64,000 bases of DNA from Planosporangium thailandense (GTDB taxonomy: Bacteria > Actinomycetota > Actinomycetes > Mycobacteriales > Micromonosporaceae), in NCBI RefSeq assembly GCF_011947195.1, contig NZ_JAATVY010000007.1, positions 124,001-188,000 on the forward strand, given 5' to 3'. The position numbers and the translations under genes were made by a program. Within the stretch, counting starts at the first letter, position 1, and each line of letters starts with the position of its first letter. Of this stretch, positions 5,341 through 63,250 are shown in pieces. The notes below the pieces were generated by a model that did no database searches, was not told the origin of the DNA, and was given only the letters and a program-made list of their open reading frames with translations.

Positions 5341-10659
<5,319 letters not shown>

Positions 10660-36160: not shown

Positions 36161-36227
36161 GGACGCCCCTTCCATTGTGGATGGAGGAACACCGGCGTAC
36201 CGATGCCCTTCCGTGGCATACCAATCC

Positions 36228-39200: not shown

Positions 39201-42200
39201 CTGGTGGTCCATGACGCCGGCCAACCACTCCTGCAACCCGACGAAGAAGTCACGCAGCGTCTGCCCGGGCCTGACCCGCACCCGTACCGGAAGGGTGTTG
39301 ATCAGTAGTCCGACCATGGACTCGACTCCGGGGATCTCCGCGGGCCGCCCGGACACGGTACCGCCGAAGAGAACGTCGTCGCGGCCGGTGAGGTACGCCA
39401 GGACCAGGCCCCAGGCGCCCTGGAAGAAGGTGTTCAGCGTCAGGTCGCTCTGCCGCGCCGACGCCGTCAGGGCGGCGGTGAGCTCCGGACTCAGCGTGGC
39501 CACCGCGTGCGCGGGCACCGCGGCCCGGCGGGCCGGGTCGACGGGCGCGACCAGGGTCGCGTCGTCCACCCCGGCCAGGCTCTCGCGCCAGACCGTCTCG
39601 GCGCCGGCCAGGTCGCGCCGGGCCACCCAGGACAGGTACTCCCGATAGGGCGTGGGCGGGGGCACCGCCTCGTCGCGGCGGCGGTTGTACAGCTCGAACA
39701 GCTCCGCGAACAGCAACGGCATCGACCATCCATCGAGGAGGATGTGATGGTTGGTCATCAGCACGGTGTGCTGCTGCGGGCCTCGCTTGATCAGCGTGAA
39801 CCGCAGCAGCGGTGGCCTCGTGACGTCGAACCGCTCGGCGCGGTCGGCCGCGAGCACCCGTTCCAGCTCCTCGGCCCGCCGGCCGGGCTCGTGGGCCGTC
39901 AGGTCGACCTCCGCCCAGGGCACGTCCACGTCCGAGAGGACGACCTGCACGGCATCACCCCGCAGCCGGCGGTGGAACGCGGTCCGCAGGTTGTCGTGGC
40001 GGCGCAGCAGCGCCCGGGCCGCCGCGCGCAGGCCGCGCACGTCGAGCGGTCCGTCCAGGTCGAAGTAGGTCTGCACGTTGTACACGTCGGGTGCCTGGTC
40101 GTCGTACTGCGCGTGGAACAGCAGCCCGTCCTGCAACGGCGCCAACGGCCACACGTCGACCAGACCCGGCTGGGCGGCCTCCAACTGCTCGATCTCGGCC
40201 TGCCCGAGGCGGACCAGCGGCAGGTCCGACGGGGTGAACCCGCCGGCACCCGGCCGCGCCGCGCACACCGTCAGCGCGTCGAGCGCCCGCAGCCAGGTGT
40301 CCGCCAGCTCGACGACGGCGTCCTCGTCGAGCAGCGCGCCAGGCCACGACCAGGTCACGCTCAAGGCGGGCCCGGCCTCGGAGTCCTCGGTCGCCGCGTT
40401 GATCTGCAGGGCGTGCGGCGCGGGCATGTCGGGATCCGCGCCACCCCCGAGCAACCCGGACTCCGGCGCCGGCAGCCAATCGCCGGAAGCCGTGGACGCT
40501 GCGGTGTCGAGGCGCCCGAGATAGTTGAACGCGATCTCCGGTGCCGGGTCCGCCGCGAGTTCGGCGGCGGTGTCGGGATTGAGGTATCGCAGCAGCCCGA
40601 AGCCCAGACCGTGGTCCGGTGGCAACGCCCGGAGCTGCTCCTTGATCCGTTTCAGGGCGGCCGCCGCTTCCGGGCCGCCGGCCAGGGCGTCGTCCAGGTC
40701 CAGCTCACCCAGGTCCAGGCGGGCCGGGTGCATGCCGGTGAACCAGCCGACGGTGCGGGACAGGTCGATGCCGTCGGCGTCGTGCTCCCTACCGTGCGAC
40801 TCCAGTTGCAGCAGCAGCGCCCGCTCGTCCGCCCCGCCCCGGCGTCGTCGCCAGTCCGCCACCGCGATGCCCAGCGCCGTCAGCAGCACATCGTTGACCC
40901 CCGCGTGGAACACGGCGGGTACCTGTGTCAACAGCGGGATCGTCACCTCGACCGGCAACCGGCGGGTGACCGCCCGGAAGGTACCGACGACGTCACGGTC
41001 GTCCCGCGCCCGGTTCAGCTCCAGCCGGCCACCCGCCCGGCCCACGGCCCGCCAGGCAGCCAGTTCGGCTACCCGCTCGGGCGTACGCGCCGCCTCGACG
41101 AGGTGCTGGCTCCACCGGCGCAACGACGTGCCGACCGGGGTCAGCTGGATCGGGCTTCCGGACTGCACGCAGCGCCACCCGTCGGCCAGGTCGGACATGA
41201 GGATCCGCCACGAGACGCCGTCCACCACGAGGTGGTGGACGACGAGCAGCAACCGGCCGGGGCGCGCCGGGCCGGCGTCGAACCAGACCGCCCGCAGCAT
41301 GACCCCGGACCGGGGAGCCAGCCGGTCCCGCGCCCGCTCGGCATGCGCGGCCACGACATCGTCGAGTGGCTCGGCGCCCAGGTGCGCGACGTCCACCCGC
41401 TCGATCAGGCCGTCGACCCGTACGGAACCCTTGGGGGGAATGTCCAGCGACCAGCCGCCGTCGTCCACCAGGCGCCCGCGCAGCGCGTCATGGTGGTCCA
41501 CCAGGGCCTGCACCAGCTCGGTCAGTCGAGGCAGGCTCAGCTCCGCCGGCGTCCGCAGGAGCACCGACTGGCTGAAGCCGTCGATCGGGCCGCCCAGCTC
41601 GCGCAGCCAGTGCCCGATCGGGGTCAGCGGTACGACTCCGATCGCGGCTTCCGGCGGTTCGGCCGCCTGGTCGGCCAGGCAGTTCACCGCGGCGGCCAGG
41701 GCGGCGACGGTCTTGTGGGTGAACACGTCGCGCGGGGAGAACAGCAGGCCGGCCTTGCGCGCGCGACTGACCAGCTGGATGGAGGAGATGCTGTCACCGC
41801 CGAGGTCGAAGAAGCTGTCGTCCACCCCGACCTGCGGCAGCCGGAGGACCTCCGCGAACAGCTCGCTCAGCGTGCTCTCCTGCGGGGTACGGGGCGCCCG
41901 GCCGGTCGTGGCCGCCGCCACGTGGGGGGCCGGCAACGCCCGGCGGTCGACCTTCCCGTTGGGGGTCAGCGGGAGCGCGTCGATGACCATGACGCTGCTC
42001 GGCACCATGTACTCGGGCAGCCGGCCGCGCAGCTCGGCCAGGACCGCCGCTTCCAGCTCGGCCCGGCTGCGGGCCGACACGGGGGTGTTGGCGTACGCCT
42101 CCGGCCGCGCCCCGGGGGCGGCGAGGTAGAAGTCGGTGGGCGGCGCGGCGGCCGCCTCGGCCGCGGAGACCAACACCGCGTCGAACGTGTCCTCCGCGCC

Positions 42201-45200
42201 CCCGCCCGACCAGGTGGTGGCCACCCAGTAGCCGGCCTCGGCGGCGAGCCGGTGCAGCGCCGCCGGCTCCACCGCCGGCCCCGGCGGTGCGGTGAGGACG
42301 GTACGCACGGACTCCACGTCGGCGGCGTCGACAAGGGCGCGCGCGGCGGCGACCTCGGCGGCCACCCGGGCGTTGGGCACTCCGACGACGCGCAGCTGCG
42401 CGGGCCGCTCCTGTGACAGCAGCTCGCGCAACGCCCCGACGGTGGCCACCTCGCCGCCCCAGCGCACGGTCCGCGCCGGCGCGAACGGCCGCGCGGCCGT
42501 CGGTGCCTTGCGCAGGACCACCTCGTACCGGTACCGGCTCAGCTCGTTGTCGAAGTCGCCCTGCTTGAGGTGGATCTCGACGCCGTCGATCCCGTCGACG
42601 ACCGTCCGCAGCGCGGGGAAGAACTCCGGGTCGAGCAGCAGCTCGTTCTCCACCAGCAGCCCGTGCTCCACGCCGGCGCGCAGCGCCGCCACGTCGGCGC
42701 GCGGGCGCATCAGCTGGATCCCGGTCTGCAGAGCACGGTGCAGCCGCAGGTTGCGGATGTCACCGAGGTACACCGCTCCGCCCGGGCGCAGCAGCCCGAC
42801 CGCCCGGCGCAGCACGTCGACGACGTAGTCCGCCCCCGGGAAGTACTGCACGACGGAGTTGAGCACGACCGTGTCGAAGAAGTCCTCGGGAAGCCCGGAG
42901 AAGTCGTGTGCCGGTTGGGCGCGCAGCTCCACCCGGTCGGCGATGTCGGGCTCCCGGGCCACCTGCCGGGCCAGGTTCTCCACCGCGACCGGGGAGAAGT
43001 CGGTGCCCCAGTACGCCGCGCAGCGCGGCGCGACGGCGGCCAGGATCAGTCCACTGCCGACACCGATCTCCAGCACCCGGCGGGGCCGCAACGCGAGCAC
43101 CTGCCCGGCGGTGTACTCACGCCACGCGAGCATCTCCGGCAGCGGAATCGGAGCACCGGTGTAGCTGGAGTTCCAGCCGCCGAAGTTCGTACCGAAGCCG
43201 CCCGTCCCGGTGTGCTCGCGGTACATCGAGTCGTACAGCTGCCGCCAGTCGCCGACCGACTGCGCCGCGCCGTCGTCGTCGCGGCCGGCGGCCTCGTCGG
43301 CCCCGGGCACCACGTAGGCGACCAGCCGCTTGTCCCCGGGGCCGTCGGCGCGCGCCACCACCGCCACCTGGCCGACACCGGCACAACGCGCCGCGGCCGC
43401 CTCGATCTCGCCCAGCTCGATCCGGAAGCCCCGCACCTTGACCTGGTCGTCCAGGCGGCCCAGGTACTCCAGCTCACCGGCGGCGTTCCAGCGCACCTGG
43501 TCCCCGGTGCGGTACATCCGCCCGCCGTCGGCGTCGAACGGATTGGCGACGAACCGCTCGGCGGTCAGCGCGGGCCGCCCGAAGTATCCGCGGGCCAGTC
43601 CCACCCCTGCGATGTAGAGCTCGCCGGCCACGCCGACCGGTACCGGTTGGAGCGCGCCGTCGAGCACGTACACCTGCATGTTGTCCAGCGGGCGCCCGAT
43701 CGGCACGCTGTTCGGCACGCCGTCGGCGGCGCGGATGGGGTGCCGGGTGGCGAACGTCGTCGTCTCGGTCGGGCCGTAGCCGTCGACCACCATGATTCCC
43801 GGACACGCCGCGCGGACCCGGCGTACCGCCTCCGCGGGGACGACGTCGCCTCCGGTCCACACCTCGCGGACCCCGGCCAGGCACTCCGGCGACTCGTCCG
43901 CCAGCACCCGGAACAGTCCGGCGGTCAGCCAGAGCGCGGAGACCTGCCGCTCGCCGATCACCTTGGCCAGGGCGGCGATGTCCAGCTCACCCGGGCGCGC
44001 CACGACCACGTGGCCGCCGGAGAGCAGGGGAACCCACAGCTCGTACGTCGAGGCGTCGAAGGCGGCCGGGGAGTGGAACAGCACCCGTCGGTGCGCCCCG
44101 GTGGCGAAGGACCGGTCCCGCGCCAGACCGACGACGTCGCGATGGGTCACCGCCACACCCTTGGGCACGCCGGTCGACCCGGACGTGTACATGATGTAGG
44201 CCAGCCGCCCGGGATGTCCCGGCAGCCCCGGGTCGGTCACGCCCACCTCGGGGCCGACCGGCTCCACCACCGAGACGACCCGCACCGCCGGGCCGAACGC
44301 CCCGGGGTCGGCGGTGCCGTCGGTGAGCACCACCGACGCCCCGGTGTCCGCGACGATGTGCGCCAGCCGGTCGGCCGGGTAGCGCTCGTCGAGCGGCACG
44401 TACGCTCCGCCGGCCTTGAGCACCGCGAGGATGGAGACGATGAGGTGCGCGGAGCGCTCCTGCAGGATCGCCACCGGCTCCTCGGGACGCAGCCCCATGC
44501 CGAGCAGCCGGTGCGCCAGGGCGTTGGCCGCGGCGTTGAGCTGGGCGTACGTCAGCGTCGTGTCGCCGGCGCTGACCGCCACGGCGGTCGGTGCGCGACG
44601 CACCTGCGCTTCGAACAGGTCGACCAGCGTGGCGTCCGGCAGGGGGTTCTCGGTGCCGTTCCAGCTCACCAGCACCCGCTCCCGTTCGGCGTCGGAGAGC
44701 CCGGCGAGCTGCTGGATGCGTACCTCGCTGTCCCGGCTGACCGCCTCGAGCATGCGGTTGACGCGCTGCACGACCGCCTCGGCGGCCGGCTTTTCGACCA
44801 GGTCGGCGCGGTAGTCCAGGCGCAGGTGGAGCTGACCGTCCACAATCGCCGCGAACAGGGTCAGCACGTAGTGCGCGGAGTCCCGGGCCACCAGGCCCCG
44901 GATGGTCAGGTCGTCGCCGATCGTGCCCCGCAGCGAGTTCTCGTCGACCGGATAGTTCTCCAGCACCATATTGGTGTCGAACAGCTCCCGCTGGTCGATG
45001 AGCGCCTGGATCCTGTTCAGGCCGAGATGCTGGTGCGGCAGCAGCGCCACCTGCTCACCCTGTAGCCGGGTCAGCAACGACGTCATGGTCTCGTCGGGGG
45101 CGAACCGCACCCGTACCGGCACGGTGTTGACGAACAGTCCGACCATCTTCTCCATGCCGGGGATCTCCGGCGGCCGTCCCGACACGGTCGCGCCGAACAG

Positions 45201-46010
45201 CACGTCACGACTGCCGATCAGGTCGGCGACGACGACGCCCCACACGCCCTGCACGACCGTGTTGACGGTGACGCCGTGCCGCCTGGCGTAGGCCTCCAGG
45301 GCCCCCGTCACCTCAGGTCCGGCGACGAGCACCGTCTGGTGCGGTGTCACCGAGGTGCGGCCGGGGTCGGCGTCGGCGACGAGGGTGGGGCCCTCGACGC
45401 CGGCCAGGGCGTGCCGCCACGCCGCCTCCGCCGCCGGTACGTCCTGCTTGCCGAGCCACGTCAGGTAGTCGCGATAGGGGGTCGCGGCGGGCAGCCGCGC
45501 GTCGCCCCCGCGGCTGGCGTACAGCGTGAACAGCTCGCTGACGACGACGGCGGTGGACCACCCGTCCAGCACGATGTGGTGGTTGGTCATCACCAGGCGA
45601 TGCCGGTGCGGGCCCAGCCGCACCAGCGTGAAGCGCAGCAGCGGTGGCCGGTCCAGGGCGAACCGGCGGACCCGGTCGTCGTCCATGAGGCGCGACAGCT
45701 CGGCGTCACGTCGGCCCTCCTCGACCTCGGTGAGATCCACCTCGGTGAACGACACCGTCACGTCGCTGAGGACCGCCTGGATAGGGTCGCCCGACTTCCG
45801 GGTCTTGAACGCCGTCCGCAGCGCGTCGTGCCGGGAGACCACCGCCTGGGCCGCCGCGCGCAGGGCGGCGACGTCGAGCGGTCCTTCCAGGTCGAACCCG
45901 AGCTGCACGGTGTACACGTCGGTGCCGCGCTGGTCGTACAGGGCGTGGAAATGCAGGCCCTGTTGGACCGGGGTGAGGGGCAGGACATCCTGAAGGTGGG
46001 GCCGAGTCAC
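36228..46010 (-). CDS. NRPS, C-A(nMT)-PCP-E-C-A-PCP-TE (two modules)
   Basis: 3260 residues. Domains: C (1-430; HHIVLDG at 144), A (450-900), an N-methyltransferase inserted between A8 and A10 (about 915-1165; [22 protein letters not shown]), PCP (LGGDSI near 1403), E (about 1455-1900; HHLVVDG, FNYLGR), C (about 1950-2390; HHILLDG), A (about 2415-2880), PCP (LGGNSL) and a C-terminal TE (about 2995-3260; GWSFGG). Aligned by eye to GrsA, the specificity codes are DAYWWGGTFK and DAYWWGGVFK, both close to the Val code DAFWIGGTFK. The first module should add N-methyl-D-Val-like and the second a Val-like residue, then release or cyclise the chain. GTG 46010 overlaps the upstream NRPS stop by 4 bases, better than TTG 46025. 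Confidence 0.95.
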
Positions 46011-49000
46011 GGCACGATCTCCCAATCCGTGAGGAGCTCTTGTTCCAGCTCGTCGATTTCGTCCTGGCTGATCGGTACCGGCACGTCCGACGGCGTCAGG
46101 CCGCCCGCAGGCGCGACGGCACAGTGCTCGACCAGCGCCGTGAGCAACCGGAACCAGGCGTCGACCAGTTCACCGGCGTCCTGTTCGGACAGCAGCTGCG
46201 CCGGCCAGCCGACCACGACCTGCAGGTGCGGCCCGTCCGCCCGGTCTTCGGCGACCACGGTCACTTCCAGCACGTGCGACAAGGGGGTACGGGGGTCGAC
46301 GGCCGCGGCGGCGCTGGTCAGACCGTCGGCGCCGGTGATCACACTCCAGTCGGCGCCGTCGGCCGCCGGCAGGCGGCCCAGGTAGTTGAAGCCGATCTGC
46401 GGCTCCGGGTGGCGCGCCAGCGCCGGACGGGTGTCCGGGTTGACGTACCGCAGCAGGCCGTACCCGACCCCCCGGTCCGGGACCGCCCGCAGCTGTTCCT
46501 TGACCGCTTTCAGGGCCCGGAGGATTCCGGGACCGGTCCCGTCGACCTCCCCCGGGTCCAGCCGGACCGGGAAGATGCTGGTGAACCACCCCACCGTTCG
46601 GGACAGGTCCGCGGCGGCGGCGCCGTCGCGGCCGTGCCCCTCGAGGTCGATCAGGACGCTGCTGTCGCTGCCCAGGCCCCGGTCCTGACGCCACCGGGCC
46701 ACCGCGATCGCGAAGGTGGCCAGCAGCGCGTCGTTGACACCGGCCCGGAACGCCGCCGGCACCGACGTCAGCAACGGCTCGGTGACCGCCGTCGGTAGGG
46801 TCCGCACCAGGTGCGAGGCGGCGCGGACCAGATCCCGACCCGGGTCGAGCGGACGGTTGGCCAGCAGCGGATCGGCGCCGCGCATCGTCGCCGCCCAGTA
46901 CGGCAGCTCCGCCTCCCGGGCCGGATCGAACGCCGAGGCCGAGACCTGCTGTGCCCACCGGCGAAACGAGGTGCCGACCGGCGGAAGCTCAGGGGTACGG
47001 CCGGCGTCGGCCTCCCGCCACGCCTCGGCCAGGTCTGCCGCGACGATCCGCCACGAGATGCCGTCCACCACGAGGTGATGGGCGACCAGGAGCAGGACTC
47101 CGCTGCGGGACGGGCCCGCGTCGAACCACTCCGCCGCGATCATGCGTCCGTCGGCCGGCCTGATGGCCGCGGCCACCCGGGCCGCCCGTTCGCCCGCGGC
47201 GGCCCGCAGCCGCGCGTCGTCCCACCCACCGACGTCGACGCGGGTCACGCAGTCCTCGGCGCGGACCGCGCCGGCCGGAGGTACCGTCAGCGCCCCCTCG
47301 GTGCCGTGCCCGCCGGCGACGAAGGTGCCGCGAAGCACGGCGTGCCGGTCGAGGACAGCCTGTACGGCCACGAGCAGGCCGCGGTAGCCCAGCCCGGCCG
47401 GTACGCGCAGCGCCAGCGTCTGGTTGTAGCCGTCCACCGGCCCGCCCAGCTCCCGCCAGCGCCGCATGATCGGCGTCAGCGGGACCTCGCCGACCGGCTC
47501 GTCGGGCACGTCGTCGTCGGCGGCTGTCACGGAGCTGGCCACCGCTGCCAGGGCCGCCACCGTCTTGTGCTCGAAGACGTCCTTGGGGGTGAGGATGATG
47601 CCGGCCTTGCGGGCCCGGCTGACCAGCTGGATCGAGATGATGCTGTCCCCGCCGAGGGCGAAGAAGTCGTCCTGGACCCCCACCTCCGGCAGTCCGAGCA
47701 CCTCGGCGACCAGGGCGCAGAGCTGCTCCTCACCGGGAGTGCGGGCCGCGCCGCCCTTGACCGGCGCCGACAGCGCCGGGGCGGGCAGCGCCGCCCGGTC
47801 CAGCTTGCCGTTGGGGCTCAGGGGCAGCCGGTCGAGCATGACGAACAGGGCCGGGACCATGTAGTCGGGCAGCGTCGTCGCGGCGTGCCGGCGCAGCTCG
47901 TCCGGCGACGGAGCCGGGCCGGGGCCGGCCACCACGTATGCGACCAGGCGCTGCCCGAGGCCGTCGTCCTGCCGCGCGGCGACGGCCACCGCCGCCACGG
48001 TCGGGTGGCTCGCCAGCGCCGCCTCGATCTCCCCCAGCTCGATGCGGAACCCGCGGATCTTCACCTGGTGGTCGACGCGGCCGAGATAGTCCAGTGCCCC
48101 GTCGTCGCGCCACCGGGCCAGGTCGCCGGTGCGGTACATCCGCTCCCCCGGCTCCCCGAACGGATCGGCCACGAACCGCTGCGCCGACAGGCCGGGTCGG
48201 TCGAGGTAGCCGCGGGCCAGCTGAACACCTGACAGATACAGCTCGCCGACCTCCCCTACCGCCACCGGGCGCAGCCGCGCGTCGAGCACGTGCAGGCCGG
48301 TGTTCCAGACCGGTCGGCCGATCGGTACCGGGCCGGACTCGTCCGGCGCGCAGGGCCAGTACGTGACGTCGACCGCCGCCTCCGTCGGCCCGTACAGGTT
48401 GTGCAGCGTCGGCCCCGAACCGCCGTACAGCTCGTAGAACCGGTCACGCAGCTCCGCCGGGAGCGCCTCGCCGCTGCAGATGACCCGGCGCAGCCCCGTG
48501 CATGACACGGCTGCCGGCTCAGCGAGGAAGGGGCGCAGCATGGACGGTACGAAGTGGACCGTGGTGACGCCCGCGGCGGCGATCAGCCGGGCCAGGTACG
48601 CCGGGTCCTGCTGGCCGCCGGGCCGGGCGAGCACCAGCACGGCGCCCGTCAGCAACGGCCAGAACAGCTCCCACACCGAGACGTCGAAGCCGACCGACGT
48701 CTTCTGGAGAACGGCGTCTTCGCCGGTCAGCCCGTACTCGGCCTGCATCCAGCAGAGCCTGTTCACGATCGCCTCGTGCGTGACCACCGTGCCCTTCGGC
48801 GCGCCGGTGGAGCCCGACGTGTAGATGACGTACGCCGGATGACGGGGGCCGAGCGGGTGGCGACGGTCGGCGTCGCGCGGCGCGCCGTCATCGTGCCCGG
48901 CCAGCGTCTCCCGGGTTCGCGGATCGTCGAGGCAGACGGCGGGCAGGCCGTCCACCTGCGGCAGGACCGCCGCGATGTCGGTCGTGGTGAGCAGCAACGT

Positions 49001-52000
49001 GGGCGCCGCGTCGGTTAGCAGGTACGCGACGCGCTGCTGCGGGTAGTCCGGGTCGATCGGGACGTACGCCGCGCCGGCCTTGAGGACGGCCAGCACCGCC
49101 ACCATCATGTCGACCGACCGGTGCAGCGCCAGCGCCACCCGCCGCTCCGGTCCGACGCCACGGCCGATCAGGTGGTGCGCCAGCCGGTTTGCCCGCGCGT
49201 CGAGCTCGGCGTACGACAGGCTCACCTCGCCGAAGCGCACCGCCGGGGCGTCCGGTGTGCGGAAGACCTGCAGCTCGAACAGGCCCGGCAGCGTGATGCC
49301 CGGTACCGGCCGGCGCGCCCCGACGGTTGCGGCGGGCGGACGCTGCCGCGCCGCGCCGGTCAGGTCGAGGCGGCTCAGCGGGGTGTCCGGCTGCGCCGTG
49401 GCCGCGCCGAGCAGGCGTACCAGCAGCGCGGCGAACCGGTCGACCGTGTCGCGGTCGAACAGGTCGGTGGCGTACTCGATGAGCCCGTCGAGGCCGGCGG
49501 GTTCCCCGTCGTCGGTGCGCCGTGCCTGCAGATCGACGGTGAGGTCGAACTTGGCGGTGGTGCGCGGCACCGGCACCCGCTCGGTGCGCAGACCGGCCAG
49601 CGGCACCGGCGCGGGCTCCTGGTCGTTGAAGGCCAACATGACCTGGAAGAGCGGGTGCCGGGCGAGAGACCGGGCGGGTTTCAGCTCCTCGACCAGGCTG
49701 TCGAACGACACGTCCCGGTGCGCGAAGGCCGGGGCCGCCGCCTCGCGTGAACGTCCCACCAGCTCCCGCAGGCTCGGGTCGCCACCGGTGTCGGTCCGCA
49801 CCACGAGGGTGTTGACGAAGAAGCCGACCAGGTCCGCGAGGTCTTCGTCGTCGCGGCCGTCGACCGGGACGCCGATCGGGACGTCGGTGCCGGCTCCCAG
49901 CAGCGTGAGCAGCGCCGCTGTCGCGGCGTGCAGCACGACGAAGGTACTGGCGCCGCACGCCTTGGCGACCTCGACGATCCGCCGGTGCAGCTCCGCCGGG
50001 AGGTGGAGCGGCACGGAGTCGCCCCGGTGGCTGGCGGCGGCGGGCCGGGGCCGGTCGACGGGTAGCTCCAGGCAGTCGGGCAGTCCGGCCAGCGCCTGCG
50101 ACCAGTACGCCAACTGCCCGCCCGCCGGCGACTGCGGGTCGCCCGGGTCGCCGAGCCGGCGCTGGCGGCGCAGCGCGTGGTCGGCGTACTGCACCGCCAG
50201 CGGCTCCCAGGCCGGCTCGCGGCCGTCGCGCCGGGCCTCGTACGCGGCGGCCAGGTCGCGCATCAGCGGCCCGAGGGAGGCGCCGTCGCAGGCGATGTGG
50301 TGGACCACGAGGACGAGGACGTGCTCGGTGCCGTCGACGTCGAGCAGGGTCGCCCGCCACGGCAGCTGCACCGACAGCCGGAACCCCTCCTCGGCCGCCG
50401 CCCGTACCGCGTCCGGGACGTCCGCGCCCGCGACCCGCCGCACCGACACCTCGGGTGTCACCTCGTCGGCCGGCTGGACCAGCTGGTACGGCCGGCCGTC
50501 GAGCTCCGGGAAGCTGGTGCGCAGCGGCTCGTGGCGACGCATCACGTCGGTCAACGCCGCGACGAGGGCCGGCCGCTCGAGCGGTCCGGTCAGCCGCAGG
50601 GCGAGCGGAACGTTGTAGGTGCCGTCGGCGCCGTCGAGGCGGTTGAGGAACCACAACCGCCGCTGCGCGTCCGACAGCGGCAGGTGCGCCGGCCGGGTCG
50701 GCGCCGCCGTCTCGGGCCCGGCGGGCCGGGTGGCGTCCCAGGCGGCCAGCCGCGCGCCGACGATCTCGCCGATCTCCGCCAGCGGGGCCGGCTTCATCAG
50801 GTCGGTGTGCGCCCGTTCGATGGGCCGGACGTCGATGTGCCCGGAGACGTACGGCTGCCAGCGGTCCGGCGTCGGGGAGATGTCTATCTTGTCGAGGGTC
50901 GCCCGGAAGAACAGCACGTCCCCGTCGAACCACCCGGGAGCGTAGCGCTGGATGAGTTCACTCGCGTTCGCGTACACCCGCGTCATCGCCGTGATGTGGC
51001 GCTGCTCCAGCGACGCCAGCGGGCTGTCGACCTGGCGGAGAAGCTCCACGACCCGGGCGAACTCCAGTGGCTCCCCGTCGAGGCGGCGCCGGTCGTAGCC
51101 GGCGAAGTCCAGCAGGGTCGCCATCAGCTCCGGCTCGGTCAAGGGCGGTAGGGCCAGCCCCGGGTACGCGTCGAGAATGACGAGGAGGCCGACCTGCTCA
51201 CCGAGCGCCTGCAGCGCGGTGGCGATGGCGTGCGCCACCACTCCGCCCGAGGACCACCCCAGCAGGTGGTAGGGCCCGGTGGGCTGTGCCTTGCGGATCT
51301 CGTCGACGTACCGGGCGGCCATCTCGGCGACCGACTCCGGCAGCGGGTCGCCGCCGGACAGCCCCGGCGACTGCAGACCGTAGATCGGCTGCTCCGCGTC
51401 GGTGTGCCGCAGCAGCCCGGAGTAGATCCAGCTCAGGCCGGCGGCCGGATGGACGCAGAACAGCCCCGGTCGGGCGCCGCCCTGCCGCAGGGGCAGCAGG
51501 ACGGCCAGCGGGTCGTCCTGACCGCCGGCGGAGATCCGCTCCGCCAGCTCAGCCACGCTCGGCGCCTGGAACAGCGTGCCGATGGTGACCTCCGCGCCCA
51601 GCGTCGCGCGGATCCGGCCCACCAGTTGGGTGGCGATCAAGGAATGCCCCCCGAGGTGGAAGAAGTTGTCCCTGATGCCGACCGACGGCACTCCCAGGGC
51701 CTCGGCGAACAGTTCGCACAGCACCTCTTCGCGCGGGTTGCGGGGGCAGCCGGACCCTGCTGAGGCCGCGTAGCTCGGGGCCGGGAGGGCCGCGCGGTCC
51801 AGCTTGCCGTTGTTGGTCAGCGGCAGCGCGTCCAGCAGGACCACCGTCGCCGGCACCATGTGCTCGGGCAGCACCGAAGCGGCGTGCTCCCGTAGCTCGT
51901 CCAGGCCGTCGGCGTCGGCCGGCACCACGTACGCGACCAGGCGCCGGTCTCCGGGCTGGTCCTCCCGCGCCACCACGGCGACCTGCGCCACGGCCGGATG

Positions 52001-54664
52001 ACCCGCGAGCACCGCCTCGATCTCACCCAGCTCGATGCGGAAACCGCGGACCTTCACCTGGGCGTCGGCGCGGCCGACGAACTCCAGGTCGCCGTCGTCG
52101 TTCCAGCGGGCGACGTCACCGGTCCGGTACATCCGGTCACCGGGTGCGCCGAAGGGGTGGGCCACGAACCGCTCGGCGGTCAGCGCCGCCCGGCGCAGGT
52201 ACCCGCGGGCCAGTCCGGGACCCGAGACGTACATCTCGCCCGCGACACCGGGGGGCACGGGACGCAGGCTGTGGTCGAGCACGTGCACGCTCAGGTCGGG
52301 GATCTCGCGGCCGATCACGCTCTGCACGGCCCGGGTACGGCCGGCGTCGAGCGCCAGGTACGACACGTGCACCGTGGTCTCGGTGATGCCGTACATGTTC
52401 ACCAGGACGGGAGCGTCGGGATGGCGCTCGTACCACTCCCGCAGCCGCCACAGGTCGAGCGCCTCGCCGCCGAAGATGACCCAGCGCAGCGCGAGGTCCT
52501 GTGGGTGCGCCTGCCCTTCGGCCTCGGCCTGCATGAGCTGGTAGAAGGCTGACGGCGTCTGGTTGAGCACGGTCACGCGGTGGCGTGCCAGCAGCGCCAG
52601 GAAGTCCCGGGGCGACCTGCTGACCTCGTAGGGCACGACGACCAGCCGGCCGCCGTGCAGCAGCGGGCCCCAGATCTCCCAGACCGAGAAGTCGAACGCG
52701 TACGAGTGGAAGAGGGTCCAGACGTCGTCGGGTCCGAAGTGGAACCAGTGCCGGGTGGCGTCGAACAGCCGTACCACGTTGCGGTGCGGGACGACGACTC
52801 CCTTCGGCTTCCCGGTGGAGCCGGAGGTGTAGATGATGTACGCCGCGTTCTCCGGACGCAGCCGTCGCGTCCGGTCGAGGCCCGTGGGGTCACCGGTCGG
52901 GTAGCGGCGCAGGCGGTGGACAACCTCCTCGTCACCGAGGTCCACGACCGGCACGCCGGCCAGGCCGGCCGGGAGGTCGTCACGGCCAAGCGTGACCAGT
53001 GCCGACGGCTGCGCGTCAGCGATCATGAAGGCGATCCGCTCGGCCGGGTAGGCGGAGTCGAGCGGAAGGTACGCGGCACCCGCCTTGAGCACGGCGAGGA
53101 CCGCCACGATCAGCTCCGCCGACCGGGGCAGGGCCAGCGCCACCACCTGTTCCGGGCCGACCCCCTGGTCGATCAGGTGGTGTGCGAGCTGGTTCGCCCG
53201 GGCGTTCAGGTCCCGGTAGGTCAACGCGCTGTCGCCGTCGACCACCGCGACGCGGTCCGGATGTGCGGCCGCCTCCTCGGCGAAAAGGTCGGTGATGGTC
53301 GTGCCGGTCTCGCCGGCGGAGGACTCGACGGAGCGCCGCAGCTCCTCGCCGGTCAGCACGTCCACCGTACCGATAGGACGGTCGACGTCCGCGGCCGCCA
53401 GGTTGCTCAGGAACCCGAGGAAGTGGCGCTGGTGCCGCTCCACGTCGGCGTCGGAGTACGCCGCCGGGTTGGCGTCCACGTCGACCTGGAGATCGGCGCC
53501 GCTGCCCCGGTCGTACACGATGAACGACATGTCGTCGGCCGGGCCGATGGCGAGGTTGTGCACCGTGGCGCGATGACCGCCGAATCGCAGGTCGTAGTCG
53601 AACATCATGATGTTCACCTGCGGCCCGATCAGCCGCTGGTCCTCTTCCAGCAGCCGCAGGTCGCGACGCAGGTCCTCGAAGCGGTACCGCTGGTGGCGCA
53701 GCACGGTCCGCATCCGGCCGAGGGCGTGCCGCAGGGCGTCGCCGACGCTCATGTACGGGCGGATGGCCACGCGCAGCGGCAGCACGTTGGAGACCATGCC
53801 GGGAACGCTGCGCGCCTGCCGTCCGAGCCGGGTGGTGACCGGCAGGCCCAGGACCACCTCCGCCGATCCGGTCATCCGCTGGAGGTAGGTGGCGGTGGCG
53901 GCGATGACCACGGCCGGCCAGGGGACGCCGGCCTCGGCGGCCAGGTCGCGCAGCCGGCCGGCCGCGTCGGCGCCAAGATGGGCGGTACGGCGCACCAGCG
54001 ACCGCGCCGCCGGCGGTCGGGCCCCGCACAGGCTCACCGGCTCCGGGCGGTCGGCCAGCGCCTCGGCCCAGTAGCGCCGGTCCGCGTCGAACTGTGCCGA
54101 GCCGCGATAGGCCTCCTCGGCCGCCAGGAGCGTCGACAGGCTCGGAAAGGGGTTCGCGGACGGCTCGTCGCCGGCCACCAACGACGTGTAGACCTCGGCC
54201 ACCCGCTGCGCGATGAGAGCGACGGTGAACCCGTCGACCGCCAGGTGATGGTAGCGGTGGTACCACAGGTAGTGCTCGGACGAGAGCCGGAACAGCGCGA
54301 ACAGGAACAGCGGCCCGGACTCCAGGTCGACCGGCGTGGCGAGGTCGGCGCGCATCCACCGCTCCGCCGCGGCGCGTGGGTCGGGTTCGGCGCTGACGTC
54401 GACCTCGTGCAGCGGTGTCGGCGCCGCGTCCACCACCCGCTGCCGGGGGCCCTCGGCGGTCTGGACGAAGCTGGCGCGAAGCGCGTCGGCCTCGGACACG
54501 ACCTGCCGCAACGCCGACGCGAAGAGGCCGGGGTCGACCGGCCCGTGAATCTCGAGGTACTCGCCGGCGTTGTAGATGGTGTTGGCCGGGTCGAGCTGCT
54601 GAGCGAACCAGATGCCGGACTGTGCAGCGGTGAGCGGCCGGTCGTGCGTGCGCGGAGCTGGCAT
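46007..54664 (-). CDS. NRPS, C-A-PCP-TE-C-A-PCP-E with an internal thioesterase
   Basis: 2885 residues. Domains: an EntF/DhbF-like C (1-430; HHLAVDG at 139), A (455-960), PCP (LGGHSL near 1005), a complete TE (about 1065-1310; [24 protein letters not shown] near 1136), C (about 1325-1760; HHIACDG), A (1790-2300), PCP (LGGDSI near 2340) and a C-terminal E (about 2395-2850). Codes read by eye against GrsA are DFWNIGMVHK (matches Thr) and DVWHISLVDK (close to Ser). The first C probably takes an acyl group from a free ACP. The second module yields D-Ser. The first half alone (C-A-PCP-TE) has the layout of EntF, suggesting an ancestral gene fusion. It begins 112 bases after the isomerase gene. Confidence 0.95.
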
Positions 54665-54776: not shown

Positions 54777-55493
54777 TCAGCCGCAGCCACCCGCGTGACC
54801 GCCGTCGCCGGCCAGCACGTACGGGGCCGTACCCGTCGGCACGGCCGCCCCGTCCGGGGCCGCGTCGGCACCGCCGGCGGTGCCGGCGTCACAGGCGTCG
54901 ACGAACGCGGCCAGCCGCTCGACGCCCCAGTACTTCTCCCGGCCCTGGACGAAGAGCGGCACGCCGAAGACTCCGTCGCGGCTACCCCGTGCGAGGGCTT
55001 CGGCGCCCCGCCGGCGCAGCGTGACGTCGTGCACCGCGTCGACCAGCGCGCCGACATCCGCGCCGATCCGCACGCCGATGTCGCGGATCGTGGCCGGGTC
55101 GTGGATGTCGCGCCCGTCCCGCCATCGCGCCTGGTACACCTGCGCGGCGAACAGCCGTCCCAGCCCCTGCTCCTCGGCGGCCAGATAGGCCAGGTGGGCG
55201 ACTTCCCAGCACGGTCGCGCGTCGACCGGCCAGGTCAGCGTGAGACCCCGCTGACGGCCGATCCGGCGGACGTCCTGCAGGATGTAGAAGTGCTTGTCCC
55301 GCGACATCGGGGTGTAGGTGAACGTCGCCCCGGACTCCGCCAGCAGTCGGGTGGTCCACTCATCGGGCTCCCAGTACGGGATCCACTCGAGCGCGTCGGC
55401 AACCCGTGGATACTTCTCCACCAGGTCCAGGAAGGCGAAGTACGAGTACGGACTGCGGAACGAGAAGTACCACCGCAAGCGCTCACGCTTCAC
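54777..55493 (-). CDS. HCCA-isomerase-like (DsbA/kappa-GST fold) protein
   Basis: 238 residues of the 2-hydroxychromene-2-carboxylate isomerase family: WYFSFRSPYSYFAFLDLVEK at the N-terminus, with the conserved Ser in the FRSPYSY motif. TYTPMSRDKHFYILQDVRRI is in the middle and GVFGVPLFVQGREKYWGVER near the end. The true enzymes are glutathione-dependent cis/trans isomerases. In cinnamoyl-lipid pathways an isomerase is proposed to make a Z-alkene for ring closure, and this gene is the best candidate here. The last 30 residues are Gly/Ala-rich. GTG 55493 follows AAGGGAG, 11 bases after the ketoreductase stop. Confidence 0.85.
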   Translation of the reverse strand: MKRERLRWYFSFRSPYSYFAFLDLVEKYPRVADALEWIPYWEPDEWTTRLLAESGATFTYTPMSRDKHFYILQDVRRIGRQRGLTLTWPVDARPCWEVAHLAYLAAEEQGLGRLFAAQVYQARWRDGRDIHDPATIRDIGVRIGADVGALVDAVHDVTLRRRGAEALARGSRDGVFGVPLFVQGREKYWGVERLAAFVDACDAGTAGGADAAPDGAAVPTGTAPYVLAGDGGHAGGCG

Positions 55494-55504
55494 GTCGGCT
55501 CCCT

Positions 55505-56251
55505 TCAGATGCTGATGCCGCCGTCGATCTGGAACACGGCACCGGTGACGTACCCGGCTCTGCCCGACGCGAGGTAGGCCACGAGGTCGCCGACCTCTTC
55601 CGCGCGCCCCAGCCGTCGGAGCGGGATGGCGCCGGCCATCTTCGACCTGACCGAGTCGCTGAGCACGGCGGTCATGTCGGTGTCGATGAAGCCCGGAGCG
55701 ACGACGTTCACCCGGATGCCGTACCGGCCGACCTCCTTGGCCAGCGACCGGGAGAAGCCGATGATTCCCGCCTTCGAGGCCGCGTAGTTGGTCTGCGTCG
55801 CGTTGCCGTACACGCCGGCCACCGAGGAGACGTTCACGATCACACCGGACCTGCGCTTCATCATCTCGAAGATGACCGCGCGGTTGACGTGGTAGACGCC
55901 GTCGAGATTGGTACGCAACACCGACTGCCACTGCTCGTCCGACATCATGACCAGCGGGCCGTCGTCGGTGATCCCGGCCGCGGCGACCGCGACGTCGATG
56001 CCGCCGAACGTGTTCTCGGCGGTGGCCACGAAGTCGCGCACCGCTTCCACGTCGCCCACATCCACCCGCAGCGCGAGCGACCTGCGGCCGAAGTCGGCGA
56101 TCTCCTTCTCCAGCGCCCGCGCACCGTCCTGGTTGGAGCGGTAGCAGAACGCGATGTCGAAGCCGTCGCGCGCCAGACTGAGCGCGCTCGCGCGGCCGAT
56201 ACCTCGCGATCCGCCCGTGACGAGTGCGGTGCGGGAGTTCTGGTCCGGCAT
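55505..56251 (-). CDS. FabG-like 3-oxoacyl-ACP ketoreductase
   Basis: 248 residues, a classical short-chain dehydrogenase. The cofactor motif is TGGSRGIGRA, the structural motif is VAAAGIT and the catalytic residues are Ser142/143 (NVSS), Tyr156 and Lys160 (YAASK). The C-terminus (PLRRLGRAEEVGDLVAYLAS, then DGGISI) is typical of FabG. It should reduce the 3-ketoacyl-ACP in each elongation round of the type II PKS. ATG 56251 follows AGGAGG and overlaps the dehydratase stop by one base (TGATG). Confidence 0.93.
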   Translation of the reverse strand: MPDQNSRTALVTGGSRGIGRASALSLARDGFDIAFCYRSNQDGARALEKEIADFGRRSLALRVDVGDVEAVRDFVATAENTFGGIDVAVAAAGITDDGPLVMMSDEQWQSVLRTNLDGVYHVNRAVIFEMMKRRSGVIVNVSSVAGVYGNATQTNYAASKAGIIGFSRSLAKEVGRYGIRVNVVAPGFIDTDMTAVLSDSVRSKMAGAIPLRRLGRAEEVGDLVAYLASGRAGYVTGAVFQIDGGISI

Positions 56252-56772
56252 CAATCCTCCTGTGTACCGGCCGGAGAGCCGGAATCGCTCGTTGTGCTCG
56301 GGGCGGGTCGCAGCGTCTGCGCGGGGCGGAACGCCATCACCATGCGCTCCACCGTCATGACGGGCCGGCCGGCGACCAGGCACTCACCTTCGAAGATCAT
56401 CGTGTCGCTGAGCAGCCGCACCACGCGTACGCGGTGCTCCAGCACGTCCCCGGGGAGTACCGGGTGCAGGAACCGCACCTCGGTGGCGCCGCCGAAGAGC
56501 ATGACGTCGCCGCTGAGCGGGTCACCGTCCGACGATCGGGAAGCGGCGAGGATCCCGGCGCTCTGCGCCCAGGACTCCATCAGCAGCACGGCCGGGTACG
56601 CCAGGTCGCCGTCCCGGGCGTCCCCGGAAACCTCCGCGTACCACGGTTCGTTGGTTGTCACCGCCTTGAGCGCGACGATCTCGCTTCCGGGTACGGCTGT
56701 GACCACCCGGTCCACCAGCAGCATCGGGTACCGGTGGGGCAGCCGGTGGGCGACGGTCCACGTCGACGTCAT
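56251..56772 (-). CDS. FabZ-like hotdog dehydratase subunit 1
   Basis: 173 residues. The N-terminal LPHRYPMLLVDRVV is the FabZ motif with the catalytic His. AVLLMESWAQSAGI carries the Glu of the active-site helix, followed by FGGATEVRFLHPVLPGDVLE. It should dehydrate 3-hydroxyacyl-ACP to the enoyl-ACP. It sits with a second, different hotdog protein, so they may form a heterodimer as in other polyene-forming type II PKSs. The ATG overlaps the previous stop as ATGA. The last 25 residues are Ser/Gly-rich and disordered-looking. Confidence 0.9.
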   Translation of the reverse strand: MTSTWTVAHRLPHRYPMLLVDRVVTAVPGSEIVALKAVTTNEPWYAEVSGDARDGDLAYPAVLLMESWAQSAGILAASRSSDGDPLSGDVMLFGGATEVRFLHPVLPGDVLEHRVRVVRLLSDTMIFEGECLVAGRPVMTVERMVMAFRPAQTLRPAPSTTSDSGSPAGTQED

Positions 56773-57182
56773 CCGGCCTCCCCGGTGTGGTACCGCAGGC
56801 GGACCGCGGCGACGTCGCCGCGGTCACCGCGGATCCGGGCGGTCACCCGCCAGCCGTCGCTGATCGCCGTCCAGGTGCTCTCGATGACGATCCGGTCCCC
56901 GGGGAACACGGCGCCCAGAAACCGGGTCGACTCCACCGCCGCCAGGGTCAGCACGGCGCGTGGCGTACCCGGCGCGGTCGTCAGGCAGCTGCGGTGGACG
57001 CACTCGATCAGGCAGACCCCGGGGAAGATGGGAAATCCGGGATAGTGGCCACGGAAGACCGGTTCCTGGGTCTCCAGCACGAGGCTGGTGACCGAGCGCG
57101 GCGCCGCTCCGGTCGTCGGATCGGCGACGGCCTCGGCGAGCACGTGGACGGGCGCGCGTACCGGGCTGACGACGGTGGGCAT
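56769..57182 (-). CDS. FabZ/FabA-like hotdog dehydratase subunit 2
   Basis: 137 residues. FRGHYPGFPIFPGVCLIECV is the FabZ/FabA motif (GHFPGxPIxPGV) with His and a Glu/Cys pair. The first 35 residues are variable, and VESTRFLGAVFPGDRIVIES follows. It lacks the LPHRYP motif of its neighbour, so the two may divide the catalytic His and Glu roles. ATG 57182 overlaps the ACP stop by one base. GTG 57185 directly before it is an alternative start. Confidence 0.87.
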   Translation of the reverse strand: MPTVVSPVRAPVHVLAEAVADPTTGAAPRSVTSLVLETQEPVFRGHYPGFPIFPGVCLIECVHRSCLTTAPGTPRAVLTLAAVESTRFLGAVFPGDRIVIESTWTAISDGWRVTARIRGDRGDVAAVRLRYHTGEAG

Positions 57183-57439
57183 CACGGGGTCCGCAGCTTG
57201 GCGGCGAGCAGGTCGTACGCCCGTTGCAGCGACGTCACCTGCTTCAGCTCCGACTCGGTCATGCGTACGCCGTACTTCTTCTCCAGGACGACCACGACCT
57301 CCAGTGCCATCAGGGAGTCGACGCCGAGGTCGTCCACCAGGCTCGTGTCATCGTGGATCTCGTCCACGTCGACCTCGACCACCTGGGCGACGGTGGCCCG
57401 GAGGTCTTCCTTGTCCAGAACCGTCTCTGTGCTGGCCAT
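57182..57439 (-). CDS. Acyl carrier protein (second ACP)
   Basis: An 85-residue ACP. The phosphopantetheine Ser lies in DLGVDSLMALEVVVVLEKKY. The N-terminal helix starts LDKEDLRATVAQVVEV and the acidic loop is DEIHDDTSLVDD. It carries the growing chain for the adjacent ketoreductase and dehydratases, or donates it to the NRPS. The gene is coupled to the dehydratase pair. A 111-base gap with two small tandem repeats separates it from the KS-like gene upstream. Confidence 0.95.
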   Translation of the reverse strand: MASTETVLDKEDLRATVAQVVEVDVDEIHDDTSLVDDLGVDSLMALEVVVVLEKKYGVRMTESELKQVTSLQRAYDLLAAKLRTP

Positions 57440-57482
57440 CGAAACGTCCTTTCGTTGTTGTCCAACCGTGGTCTCCGACGGT

Positions 57483-57541
57483 GAGCGGAGAGCGGAGAGC
57501 GGAGAGGGTGCGTGGTGAATGGTCTGCCGTCTGCCGTCTGC
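57483..57541. repeat. Two 7-bp tandem repeats in an operon gap
   Basis: GAGCGGA repeats about 3.4 times at 57483-57506 and TCTGCCG about 2.7 times at 57523-57541, within the 111-base gap between the KS-like and ACP genes. Both have a 7-bp unit. They may vary in copy number by slippage. Confidence 0.55.
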
Positions 57542-57550
57542 GGCCGGCGG

Positions 57551-58645
57551 TCAGCGCAGCCGCAGGAGCGCGCAGCCGACCACTCCGGTCCGGTCCACCG
57601 ACGTGACGGCGGCGACCCGCCCCTGTGCGTCGGCGGACTCCTCGGCGAGCGTGAGCACCGCGCACACCTGGAAGGCCGCCGACGCGGCCGCGGTGTCGCC
57701 GAGCAGGTGTGCGCAGTCCAGGCGCAGGGGGCCCGGGCCGAAGACCTCGTCGACAAGGTCCCGCTCCTGCGCTCCCGCGTCGCCCGGCGCCGCACAGGGC
57801 GAGACCACGTATACGTCGTCCGGGGTCACCCCGGCGCTGCGGAAGGCCCGCCGGACCGCCGAGGCCAGCGCCTGCTTGACGCTCACCCCGGCCGCCATGG
57901 CGAACTCGACCGACAGGATCTCGGCCAGCGGTCCCTGGCCCTCGACCCCGGCCGCGGGCTCCAGCAGCAGCACCGCGCAGCCCTCGCCCAGAACGGTTCC
58001 GGCCTCGTCGGGGGTGCGGCTGTGGTGCTCGAGCCAGGCCCGGGCGGACGAGTACTCCTCGACGGCGCCGCAGAACACCGTGTGCGCGCGGCCGGCGTCG
58101 AGCAGCCGGCGCGCGTAGTTGAGCGCGTAGAGCCCCGCCGCCCTACCACCGGCGACGGTCGCGTTGGGCCCCTTGAGCTGATGCCAGATGGCGCACTGTC
58201 CGGCTGCGCAGTTCATGACCGCGTTGGGGAACCGGGCCGCCTCCACGAAGTACGGCTTCGCCTGCACGAACGAGTCGCGGCTGAAGTCCATCATGCTCTG
58301 GGCGCTGCCGGTCGTGGTGCCCAGCACCAGACCCACCCCGGTGGACTCGCCCGCCCGGGTGGACGCGCGCTCGGACTCGGCCAGCAACTCCCGTACCGCG
58401 GTGACCGCCAGCCCGCTGACCCGGTCCATCGACCGGGTGCCCTTGCTGCCGAGGATCTCACGCAGCGCGAAGCCCGGGACCAGCCGGGCCCGCTCATCGG
58501 GCACCTTCCACCGTTGACTGTCTACCGTGTCGTCAGCGGGCTGTCCGGCACGCAGACCCTTGATGAGCTGGTCGCGTCCGATCCCAAACGGCGACACCGC
58601 CGACCAGGCCGAGATGACGGGCCTACTCCTGGCTATCGTTGTCAT
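57551..58645 (-). CDS. Degenerate ketosynthase homologue (no catalytic triad)
   Basis: 364 residues with an overall KS fold: VISAWSAVSPFGIGRDQLIK, NAVMNCAAGQCAIWHQLKGP, AGLYALNYARRLLDAGRAHT, then VLGEGCAVLLLEPA. At the nucleophile site the usual TACSSSL reads approximately AGGRAAGL, so Cys is absent. The HGTGT motif reads SPCAAPGD, and the second His motif (GHTxGAS) reads LGDTAAAS. It is therefore a chain-length-factor-like or structural partner rather than a condensing enzyme. ATG 58645 follows GGGAGG. It is followed by a repeat-bearing gap and the ACP gene. Confidence 0.85.
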   Translation of the reverse strand: MTTIARSRPVISAWSAVSPFGIGRDQLIKGLRAGQPADDTVDSQRWKVPDERARLVPGFALREILGSKGTRSMDRVSGLAVTAVRELLAESERASTRAGESTGVGLVLGTTTGSAQSMMDFSRDSFVQAKPYFVEAARFPNAVMNCAAGQCAIWHQLKGPNATVAGGRAAGLYALNYARRLLDAGRAHTVFCGAVEEYSSARAWLEHHSRTPDEAGTVLGEGCAVLLLEPAAGVEGQGPLAEILSVEFAMAAGVSVKQALASAVRRAFRSAGVTPDDVYVVSPCAAPGDAGAQERDLVDEVFGPGPLRLDCAHLLGDTAAASAAFQVCAVLTLAEESADAQGRVAAVTSVDRTGVVGCALLRLR

Positions 58646-58699
58646 CGGTCACCACCTCCCGGTCCGCCGGCGTCACTGCGACGGCGGCACCGATCACGC

Positions 58700-59095
58700 T
58701 CACAAGAAAAAGACCATTCGGTACGTGGACCACTGGCCGGCCAGCTCGCCGGCGGCCACGCGGCGGACTCCCGGGACGAGCCGGGTGCGGGTGTGCGGAC
58801 CGAGCGCGGCCAGGCCCGGCTCCTCCACCCACACCGCGACGCCGGCGTCGAGCAGGGCGCGCAGCCCGTGCCGGGCGTCGTTGAGGGTGTCGACGATGCG
58901 GCCGCCGATCGTCAGGGTCGGTACGGGCGGGGCCTCGACCGCGTACGAGGCGGCGGCGCCGCGCAGGAGCACCTCCAACCCGCCGAGCTGGCGGTGCAGC
59001 TCCACCGCCGAGTAGAGGGCGTCGAAGAACTGCGTCTCGACCGCACCGCGGTACGCCTTCTCCACGATCGCCAGTGCCGGACGCCAGTCCGCCAT
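58700..59095 (-). CDS. DsrE/F-like small protein 1
   Basis: 131 residues. AIVEKAYRGAVETQFFDALY, LGGLEVLLRGAAASYAVEA, then LRALLDAGVAVWVEEPGLAA and LVPGVRRVAAGELAGQWSTY follow the strand-helix order of the DsrE/DsrF/DsrH (TusBCD) fold. No Cys is visible. It is adjacent to two more such proteins, as in dsrEFH or tusBCD operons, where three small subunits form a sulfur-relay hexamer. The assignment of this one is the weakest of the three. ATG 59095 is 2 bases after the upstream stop. Confidence 0.6.
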   Translation of the reverse strand: MADWRPALAIVEKAYRGAVETQFFDALYSAVELHRQLGGLEVLLRGAAASYAVEAPPVPTLTIGGRIVDTLNDARHGLRALLDAGVAVWVEEPGLAALGPHTRTRLVPGVRRVAAGELAGQWSTYRMVFFL

Positions 59096-59097
59096 CG

Positions 59098-63182: not shown

Positions 63183-63250
63183 CTTGTCAGACCTTTGCTT
63201 CACTGCTGCGCACATGAACCCACCAGCTTTCGGACTGCGGGGCGCGACGA

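Follow-up and report, generated by a model that had tools for sequence, protein, structure and literature searches.

A conserved thioesterase domain inside a Planosporangium thailandense nonribosomal peptide synthetase, possibly acting as an in-cis acyl-threonine transferase

A thioesterase (TE) domain is usually read as the end of a nonribosomal peptide synthetase (NRPS) line. Here we describe an NRPS gene of Planosporangium thailandense in which a TE (TE1) lies after the first module and is followed, in the same frame, by a second module; the window, that is, the whole stretch of DNA analysed, comprises 64,000 nucleotides of contig NZ_JAATVY010000007.1 (positions 124,001 to 188,000, forward strand). 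Synthetases of dihydroxybenzoate-Thr siderophores, of the EntF/DhbF type, end like the first module of this protein in an adenylation domain (A) for Thr or Ser, a thiolation domain (T, or peptidyl carrier protein, PCP) and a TE. They differ in having a terminal TE and an aryl starter. The monomodular NRPS FrsA of the FR900359 pathway is similar in that it joins a starter-type condensation (C) domain to A, T and TE and assembles an N-acylated beta-hydroxy amino acid while this is bound to T; its TE was shown in vitro to transfer this residue to a hydroxyl on a macrocycle that is made separately, and the TEs of FrsA and Sln9 are grouped with that of DhbF (PMC7794379). FrsA, however, is a separate protein acting on a finished macrocycle, whereas the unit studied here is fused in cis and runs on into C-A-T-epimerization (E).

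Other described pairs work with separate proteins too. MirG is a C-A-T-TE protein beside the A-T-started MirF, with ester formation by the TE proposed (PMC9503745); this detoxin/rimosamide-like pair has the same layout as the split relatives described below. Mutation of the PipB TE abolished ester-linked products, and PipB is described as part of a tetrapeptide-making pair rather than as a C-A-T-TE monomodule (PMC12828459). MirG/MirF and PipB/PipC are separate proteins with a hybrid NRPS-polyketide synthase (PKS) partner, whereas the form in the window has a C domain after the TE. A like ester formation by a TE is given as the explanation for pseudovibriamide, with chitinimide cited as the demonstrated case, in PMC12911931. 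The TE of skyllamycin (7crn/7dxo), from a pathway that PMC9321520 places among those of cinnamoyl peptides, is the closest solved structure to TE1 but is terminal, and the Gln next to its catalytic Asp is an Ala in both TE1 and the terminal TE of the same line (TE2). Lysobactin and teixobactin lines carry two TEs each, but both are described as C-terminal (PMC8949500, PMC11735501). Searches of the open-licence literature, a scope that takes in few subscription papers, revealed no published NRPS with an internal TE; the sole 'internal TE' paper among those checked for the phrase deals with the alpiniamide hybrid line, in which the domain lies within a PKS module. The branching TE of the oocydin PKS (7r0x) is distant, at 21% identity to TE1. 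Reportedly, this domain lies within a trans-acyltransferase PKS and acylates a hydroxyl of the chain during its elongation.

The P. thailandense gene is a single ATG-started open reading frame (ORF) of 2885 aa on the minus strand. Pfam detected three Condensation matches (the third being the E domain), two AMP-binding, two PP-binding and one Thioesterase match, and a scan with domain models gave the order C1-A1-T1-TE1-C2-A2-T2-E2; these models, which also served for the relatives, were made from the window's own domains, with Pfam as the independent check for the window. TE1, at approximately aa 1048-1312, matches PF00975 over aa 1068-1298 (E 4.5e-29; 102.7 bits against a cut-off of 26.4) and carries the motifs GWSSGG at aa 1136 (Ser1138), LDAYPG at 1164 (Asp1165) and AHTDLMKP at 1285 (His1286). 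An AlphaFold2 model built from a 19-row alignment (mean predicted local distance difference test score, pLDDT, 91.7) was closest among solved folds to the bifunctional skyllamycin TE, and then to EntF (3tej). With a score over the cut-off, an alpha/beta hydrolase fold and Ser, Asp and His in place, TE1 is an NRPS thioesterase domain. A first-pass annotation had already recognised a complete TE within a C-A-PCP-TE-C-A-PCP-E protein, and its placement at 50730-51470, for which no strand was given, is close to the computed 50729-51523. In the translations of this NRPS and the downstream one, an HHxxxDG motif can be read in each of the four C and two E domains, and an LGG(H/D/N)S motif in each of the four PCPs. 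The NCBIfam EntF model PRK10252 aligns over positions 4-1290 of 1292 to aa 9-1305; since its 1332 bits fall under the curated cut-off of 2400 despite the near full-length alignment, this segment has the EntF layout but is not EntF itself.

The codes of A1 (DFWNIGMVH) and A2 (DVWHISLVD) presumably specify Thr and a Ser-like residue, and those of A3 and A4 Val-like residues. The line continues in the downstream NRPS, with the order C-A-MT (methyltransferase)-T-E-C-A-T-TE, and the linear product predicted from both genes, E domains included, is acyl-Thr-D-Ser-D-(NMe)Val-Val. TE1 and TE2, which are 46% identical, give one assembly line two TEs, as first noted. The earlier statement that both are of the same family holds at Pfam level; in our 73-row TE tree the terminal TEs of these clusters fall outside the TE1 group.

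To look for the arrangement elsewhere, a TE+C query of 421 residues was scanned against a collection of 84,980 species, each represented by a single genome, which gave 117 stretches with a relative, of which 78 loci were kept. Four matches covered nearly the whole query (residues 1-413 or 1-420), in Streptomyces alkaliterrae, S. durbertensis, S. sp. sk2.1 and S. sp. NBRC 109706. In each of the four Streptomyces assemblies (G061 to G064) the order C-A-T-TE-C-A-T-E is found within a single frame, 2895-2906 aa long, bringing the arrangement to five species with the window. Apart from these, the only loci among 106 with a TE and a following C in the same frame were the two that represent the window's own gene; the scan also gave TE-TE in five ORFs, but some of these at least may contain a single TE that it had split. 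A whole-query match was absent among the matches listed for 60 relatives of the window's genome. Profile searches with the fused TE+C region in overlapping samples, in which the best four or five first-look candidates per genome were scored so that counts are lower bounds, returned one full-length fused match (G064) and seven genomes with stand-alone TE1-like matches of 373-381 bits among 392 Streptomyces (E-value limit 1e-70), the window's own fused match and one split relative (G475) among 300 genomes of its family (1e-80), its own match and one split relative (G836) among 397 of its order (1e-95), and its own match alone among 394 of its class (1e-95). The window comes from a draft genome of 114 contigs, and the first-pass annotation had raised the possibility of a sequencing or assembly error joining two genes. 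The same fused frame in four other assemblies contradicts this; because they share the order in one frame, we consider chance or an assembly error excluded, with negligible probability left to it.

Between the window and its four orthologues, identity in module 1 was 67-70% for TE1, 68-69% for A1, 65-70% for T1 and 62-65% for C1, and in module 2 it was 57-61% for C2, 53-55% for A2, 59-62% for T2 and 52-56% for E2; in the second protein, compared with two orthologues, it was 59-60% for TE2, 70% for A3 and 75-77% for T3. The ratio of nonsynonymous to synonymous substitution rates (dN/dS, omega), obtained by a simple counting method with the PCPs left out, was lowest for TE1 of six domains (C1, A1, TE1, C2, A2, E) in three out of three Streptomyces pairs (0.122, 0.166 and 0.191). 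The loss of Ser, Asp or His that the first-pass annotation had considered was not seen: Ser1138, Asp1165 and His1286 are present, and the triad is kept in all 13 aligned TE1-family members. Because the arrangement occurs in five species and TE1 is strongly conserved, this domain probably does a job of its own. Collinear synthesis can do without a TE after module 1, and TE1 might for this reason be a bypassed relic of a gene fusion; that its omega is the lowest among the six domains in each of the three pairs makes this very improbable, and the 87-88% identity of G063 to three other Streptomyces orthologues and the intact triad speak against it as well.

The nearest relatives outside the fused group are C-A-T-TE units that stand alone, as in S. 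sedi and S. zhaozhouensis, where the unit is a separate protein. We found nine such split clusters, in seven of which (G065, G066, G390, G229, G448, G475 and G836) the start of the main NRPS is visible, while G402 and G228 reach contig ends. All seven of these main NRPSs have A-T as their first domains, with no C domain detected ahead of them, nor was a free-standing C domain detected in the stretches examined around the split clusters. The stand-alone unit is of Ser type in G065, G066, G390 and G836, and of Thr type in G229, G448 and G475. These proteins, together with the Thr code DFWNIGMVH of A1 and the presence of two TEs in the assembly line, support the initial suggestion that an EntF-like Thr module had been joined to another module. 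In G475 (C125:47862-57935), approximately 228 aa precede the first A of the main NRPS and look by eye like a truncated C-domain remnant. The A-T-C-A-T-E gene of G390 (C1:2419737-2426146) is divided between two frames, of 892 and 1292 aa, that overlap, owing to a frameshift or a sequence error. A tryptophan 2,3-dioxygenase-like gene, recognised by eye, in G065 (C44:112834-113688) adjoins an NRPS with the A code DAWTVTGVG, which we take to be kynurenine-like.

In the 73-row tree the five fused TEs formed one group, the seven split TEs included (G065, G066, G390, G229, G448, G228 and G402) another, and both together a single group (support 100/94). Its sister was a set of 18 Streptomyces TEs (99/92), all of which follow an A domain with a Thr code; in 13 of these genomes a dihydroxybenzoate-AMP ligase over the cut-off lies within ~22 kb of the TE, and one neighbourhood that was checked also contains dhbA and dhbC. 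The clade might be called griseobactin-type. A 31-row tree, in which G475 and G836 replace G228 and G402, gave the same grouping (97/90 and 96/94). When the whole C-A-T-TE unit was used with outgroups, the fused proteins were nested inside the split ones (98/99), whereas the TE-only trees showed reciprocal groups; because these trees disagree and an approximately unbiased (AU) test did not reject a single clade of split proteins (p 0.062), the change may have been either a fusion or a fission. A 43-row C tree resolved three clear groups: the first-module C domains of acyl-Ser/Thr units; C domains following a T without E (LCL), including the five C2; and those following E or opening a follow-on protein. 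The first-module C domains thus stand apart from both LCL and DCL types. The 'starter' label of C1 comes from its position and from its grouping in this tree, which contains no named starter C. That C2 might itself be starter-type and load a second acyl group was rejected by its place in the LCL clade.

Our best reading, to which we give about an even chance on the basis of sequence comparison and analogy, is that the first module is a transesterifying C-A(Thr)-T-TE module, elsewhere a separate protein, that here has become an in-cis part of the opening of the assembly line. It is preferred because of the relatives of TE1, which is closest to the TEs of stand-alone C-A-T-TE proteins, the split lines that start with A-T, the sister clade of Thr-module TEs, mostly in dihydroxybenzoate siderophore clusters, and the FrsA precedent. 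The unit has the C-A-T-TE layout with starter-type C of FrsA and MirG; the split relatives are, like those, separate proteins ending in the TE, whereas in the window C-A-T-E follows in frame. According to this reading, C1 would put a cinnamoyl or polyenoyl group from the type II PKS onto Thr at T1, and Ser1138 of TE1 would accept the acyl-Thr from T1 and transfer it to a hydroxyl. The A2 code of the four Streptomyces orthologues is DVFSVAxVY, which might be piperazate-like. Because position 2 is Ser-like only in the window, the acceptor predicted to be common to the five lines is the beta-OH of the Thr1 unit, and with that hydroxyl shared the most likely step would be formation of acyl-Thr-O-acyl-Thr on T1, as in an EntF-like first round, or a late FrsA-like branch at Thr1/Ser2. 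C2 would hand the acyl-L-Thr chain to Ser2, as its LCL grouping and intact motif suggest that the chain also proceeds through it. TE2 would then release or cyclise a final peptide of approximately acyl-Thr(-O-acyl-Thr)-D-Ser-D-(NMe)Val-Val. We also put forward, tentatively and as a doubtful extension, that the TE1 family is a coupling catalyst for acyl-Ser/Thr in cinnamoyl-type NRPS lines that replaces a condensation step in the split lines and couples two acyl-Thr before C2 in the five fused ones, giving two-tailed peptides; an internal TE of an NRPS would then introduce an ester branch while the chain is still on the line.

Several points weigh against in-cis transesterification. C2 can take acyl-Thr directly from T1, leaving TE1 unneeded for collinear synthesis, and split lines that start without a C domain also fit an amide instead of an ester. 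T1 is as conserved as TE1, and the identities of A3 and T3 are equal or higher. The closest solved TE by sequence and fold is the terminal macrocyclising epimerase of skyllamycin, its key Gln absent from TE1, and not EntF. A dihydroxybenzoate-AMP ligase is not nearby in 5 of the 18 sister genomes, lying on another contig in three (G305, G367 and G125) and with none over the cut-off in two (G322 and G242); in the stretch examined around the G305 sister TE no such gene was seen. The likeness to FrsA-type TEs, drawn from layout, published descriptions and TE trees built without FrsA, Sln9, MirG, PipB or DhbF, is putative, and in PMC7794379 the correspondence of TE clades with the reactions catalysed is termed 'less-defined', though an analysis with well-separated clades is cited there.

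Among the functions offered by the first-pass annotation, bypass is disfavoured by the lowest omega, oligomerisation or ester formation is favoured by phylogeny and precedent, and editing keeps some probability. Such editing is usually the job of a stand-alone type II TE, a separate protein, while TE1 is embedded. Hydrolysis in cis of unacylated Thr or wrongly acylated acyl-Thr from T1 would be sensible at the domain that gates the acyl group, would explain conservation without a change in product, and has a parallel in the aberrant-substrate cleavage considered by the alpiniamide authors for the internal TE of a PKS module. We nevertheless judge it unlikely: in trees built without named type II TEs, TE1 groups with TEs of Thr/Ser end modules, a separate type II-like gene is already present in the window, and the stand-alone C-A-T-TE relatives beside A-T-started lines would be left unexplained. 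A close kinship between TE1 and that separate gene was rejected at 25% identity.

The missing first C of the split lines, undetectable in every line whose start is visible and with no free-standing C in the stretches examined, raises another possibility: TE1 could stand in for condensation, passing acyl-Ser/Thr to the amine of the next aminoacyl-T (an amide) or to the thiol of another T, and in the fused lines would do so beside C2. A published type II TE moves aminoacyl chains between T domains, and in epoxinnamide, as described in PMC9321520, the N-terminal Thr bears a cinnamoyl-type group and closes the ring through its OH, an arrangement that acyl-Thr1 linked as an amide would match. The precedents, however, form esters, by experiment for the FrsA and PipB TEs and as proposed for MirG, and C2 of the fused lines keeps its motif and LCL grouping, which would make TE1 redundant, so that this role appears improbable. 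A complete EntF-layout unit could also act alone, with TE1 shedding N-acyl-Thr, an ester of it or a cyclic oligomer as a second, short product and the remaining flux going through C2; a steady loss of acyl-Thr from a strongly selected line would need a use for the short product, and we find such a branch-point release quite improbable. Epimerisation of the skyllamycin type was rejected because the Glx residue is missing: the bifunctional epimerising TEs have Gln or Glu after the catalytic Asp, according to PMC9321520, and TE1 has Ala1166, with Ala or Thr in 13 of 13 TE1-family members.

The coordinates of the two NRPS genes and their neighbours are collected in Table 1. The PKS genes are similar to the highly reducing type II PKS that PMC9321520 describes for cinnamoyl-containing nonribosomal peptides, and stand beside NRPS genes as in those pathways. 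The acyl group may be cinnamoyl or a plain polyene, both being compatible with the gene set, and no named compound was matched to the cluster product. A ketosynthase (KS) homologue is present in all five fused genomes: the window, G061 and G062 carry it within the cluster, G063 and G064 on a different contig. Among the split clusters, G390 and G836 have homologues of KS, chain-length factor (CLF) and ketoreductase (KR), and G065 of KS and KR; another KS-like gene occurs in G229, G448, G228 and G402, the main KS is on the same contig as the cluster in G066 and G229, and in G475 no KS homologue was found at the threshold applied.

The 194-aa protein had no Pfam or NCBIfam match, and its single-sequence structure model (pLDDT 44.8) was of no use; it has homologues in G061, G062 and G064 (52-56%) and in the split-line clusters G390, G066 and G836 (41-43%). 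The carotenoid isomerase-like gene has homologues of 57-59% in the G229, G448, G228 and G402 clusters, and no match among the genes called for G061-G064, where contig ends truncate some of the stretches. Elsewhere in the window, 5341-10659 (plus strand) encodes a 1772-aa protein uniting protein kinase, AAA ATPase, GAF and GGDEF domains, and at 23262-26238 (minus strand) a squalene-hopene cyclase-like protein adjoins a glycosyl hydrolase family 1 frame.

Table 1. Features of the window, in window coordinates (DH, dehydratase; ACP, acyl carrier protein).
Feature	Position	Strand	Basis
NRPS gene C1-A1-T1-TE1-C2-A2-T2-E2, 2885 aa	46007-54664	-	Pfam and domain models
C1, starter-type condensation, HHLAVDG read by eye	53333-54640	-	domain models, C tree
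A1, code DFWNIGMVH (presumably Thr)	51779-53299	-	domain models, code
T1 (PCP), LGGHSL motif	51539-51754	-	translation, domain models
TE1, internal; Ser1138 (51251-51253), Asp1165 (51170-51172), His1286 (50807-50809)	50729-51523	-	Pfam, motifs, alignment, fold
Linker TE1-C2, short, variable among relatives	50690-50728	-	comparison with relatives
C2, LCL-type clade (C after unepimerised module), HHIACDG motif	49340-50689	-	motif, domain models, C tree
A2, code DVWHISLVD (presumably Ser-like)	47780-49294	-	code, domain models
T2 (PCP)	47543-47752	-	domain models
E2, epimerization domain	46043-47500	-	domain models
Second NRPS gene C3-A3(Val-like)-MT-T3-E3-C4-A4(Val-like)-T4-TE2	36228-46025	-	Pfam, codes, domain models
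TE2, terminal thioesterase	36261-37064	-	Pfam, motifs, domain models
194-aa protein, conserved after second NRPS gene in G061, G062, G064	35591-36175	-	homology
Carotenoid isomerase/desaturase-like flavoprotein	33819-35594	-	homology
Weak 4HBT_2 (hotdog) match, conserved in related clusters	30101-31423	+	homology
Separate thioesterase, type II-like by stand-alone form	28622-29605	+	25% identical to TE1
MbtH-like protein	28342-28665	-	homology
DSBA-like (thioredoxin-fold) frame; true start probably internal	54777-55931	-	homology
Highly reducing type II PKS-like set	55505-63215	-	homology
KR (FabG-like)	55505-56383	-	homology
DH (FabZ-like)	56251-56772	-	homology
DH-like	56769-57185	-	homology
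ACP	57182-57439	-	homology
KS-like	57551-58645	-	homology
Conserved gene, no Pfam match	58700-59158	-	homology
CLF/KS	60826-61965	-	homology
KS (FabF-like)	61962-63215	-	homology
Second ACP (PP-binding)	63251-63661	-	homology

Because a conserved and selected TE after module 1 precedes a C domain with an intact motif, a product predicted by simple collinearity for this line would probably lack an ester, or a second acyl group, that is really there. The split and fused forms constitute a natural experiment on whether TEs can join pieces of an assembly line, and they draw attention to cinnamoyl-type clusters in which an acyl-Ser/Thr C-A-T-TE protein stands alone. If such joining is borne out, these forms would offer an engineering part for introducing acyl-amino-acid branches in cis.

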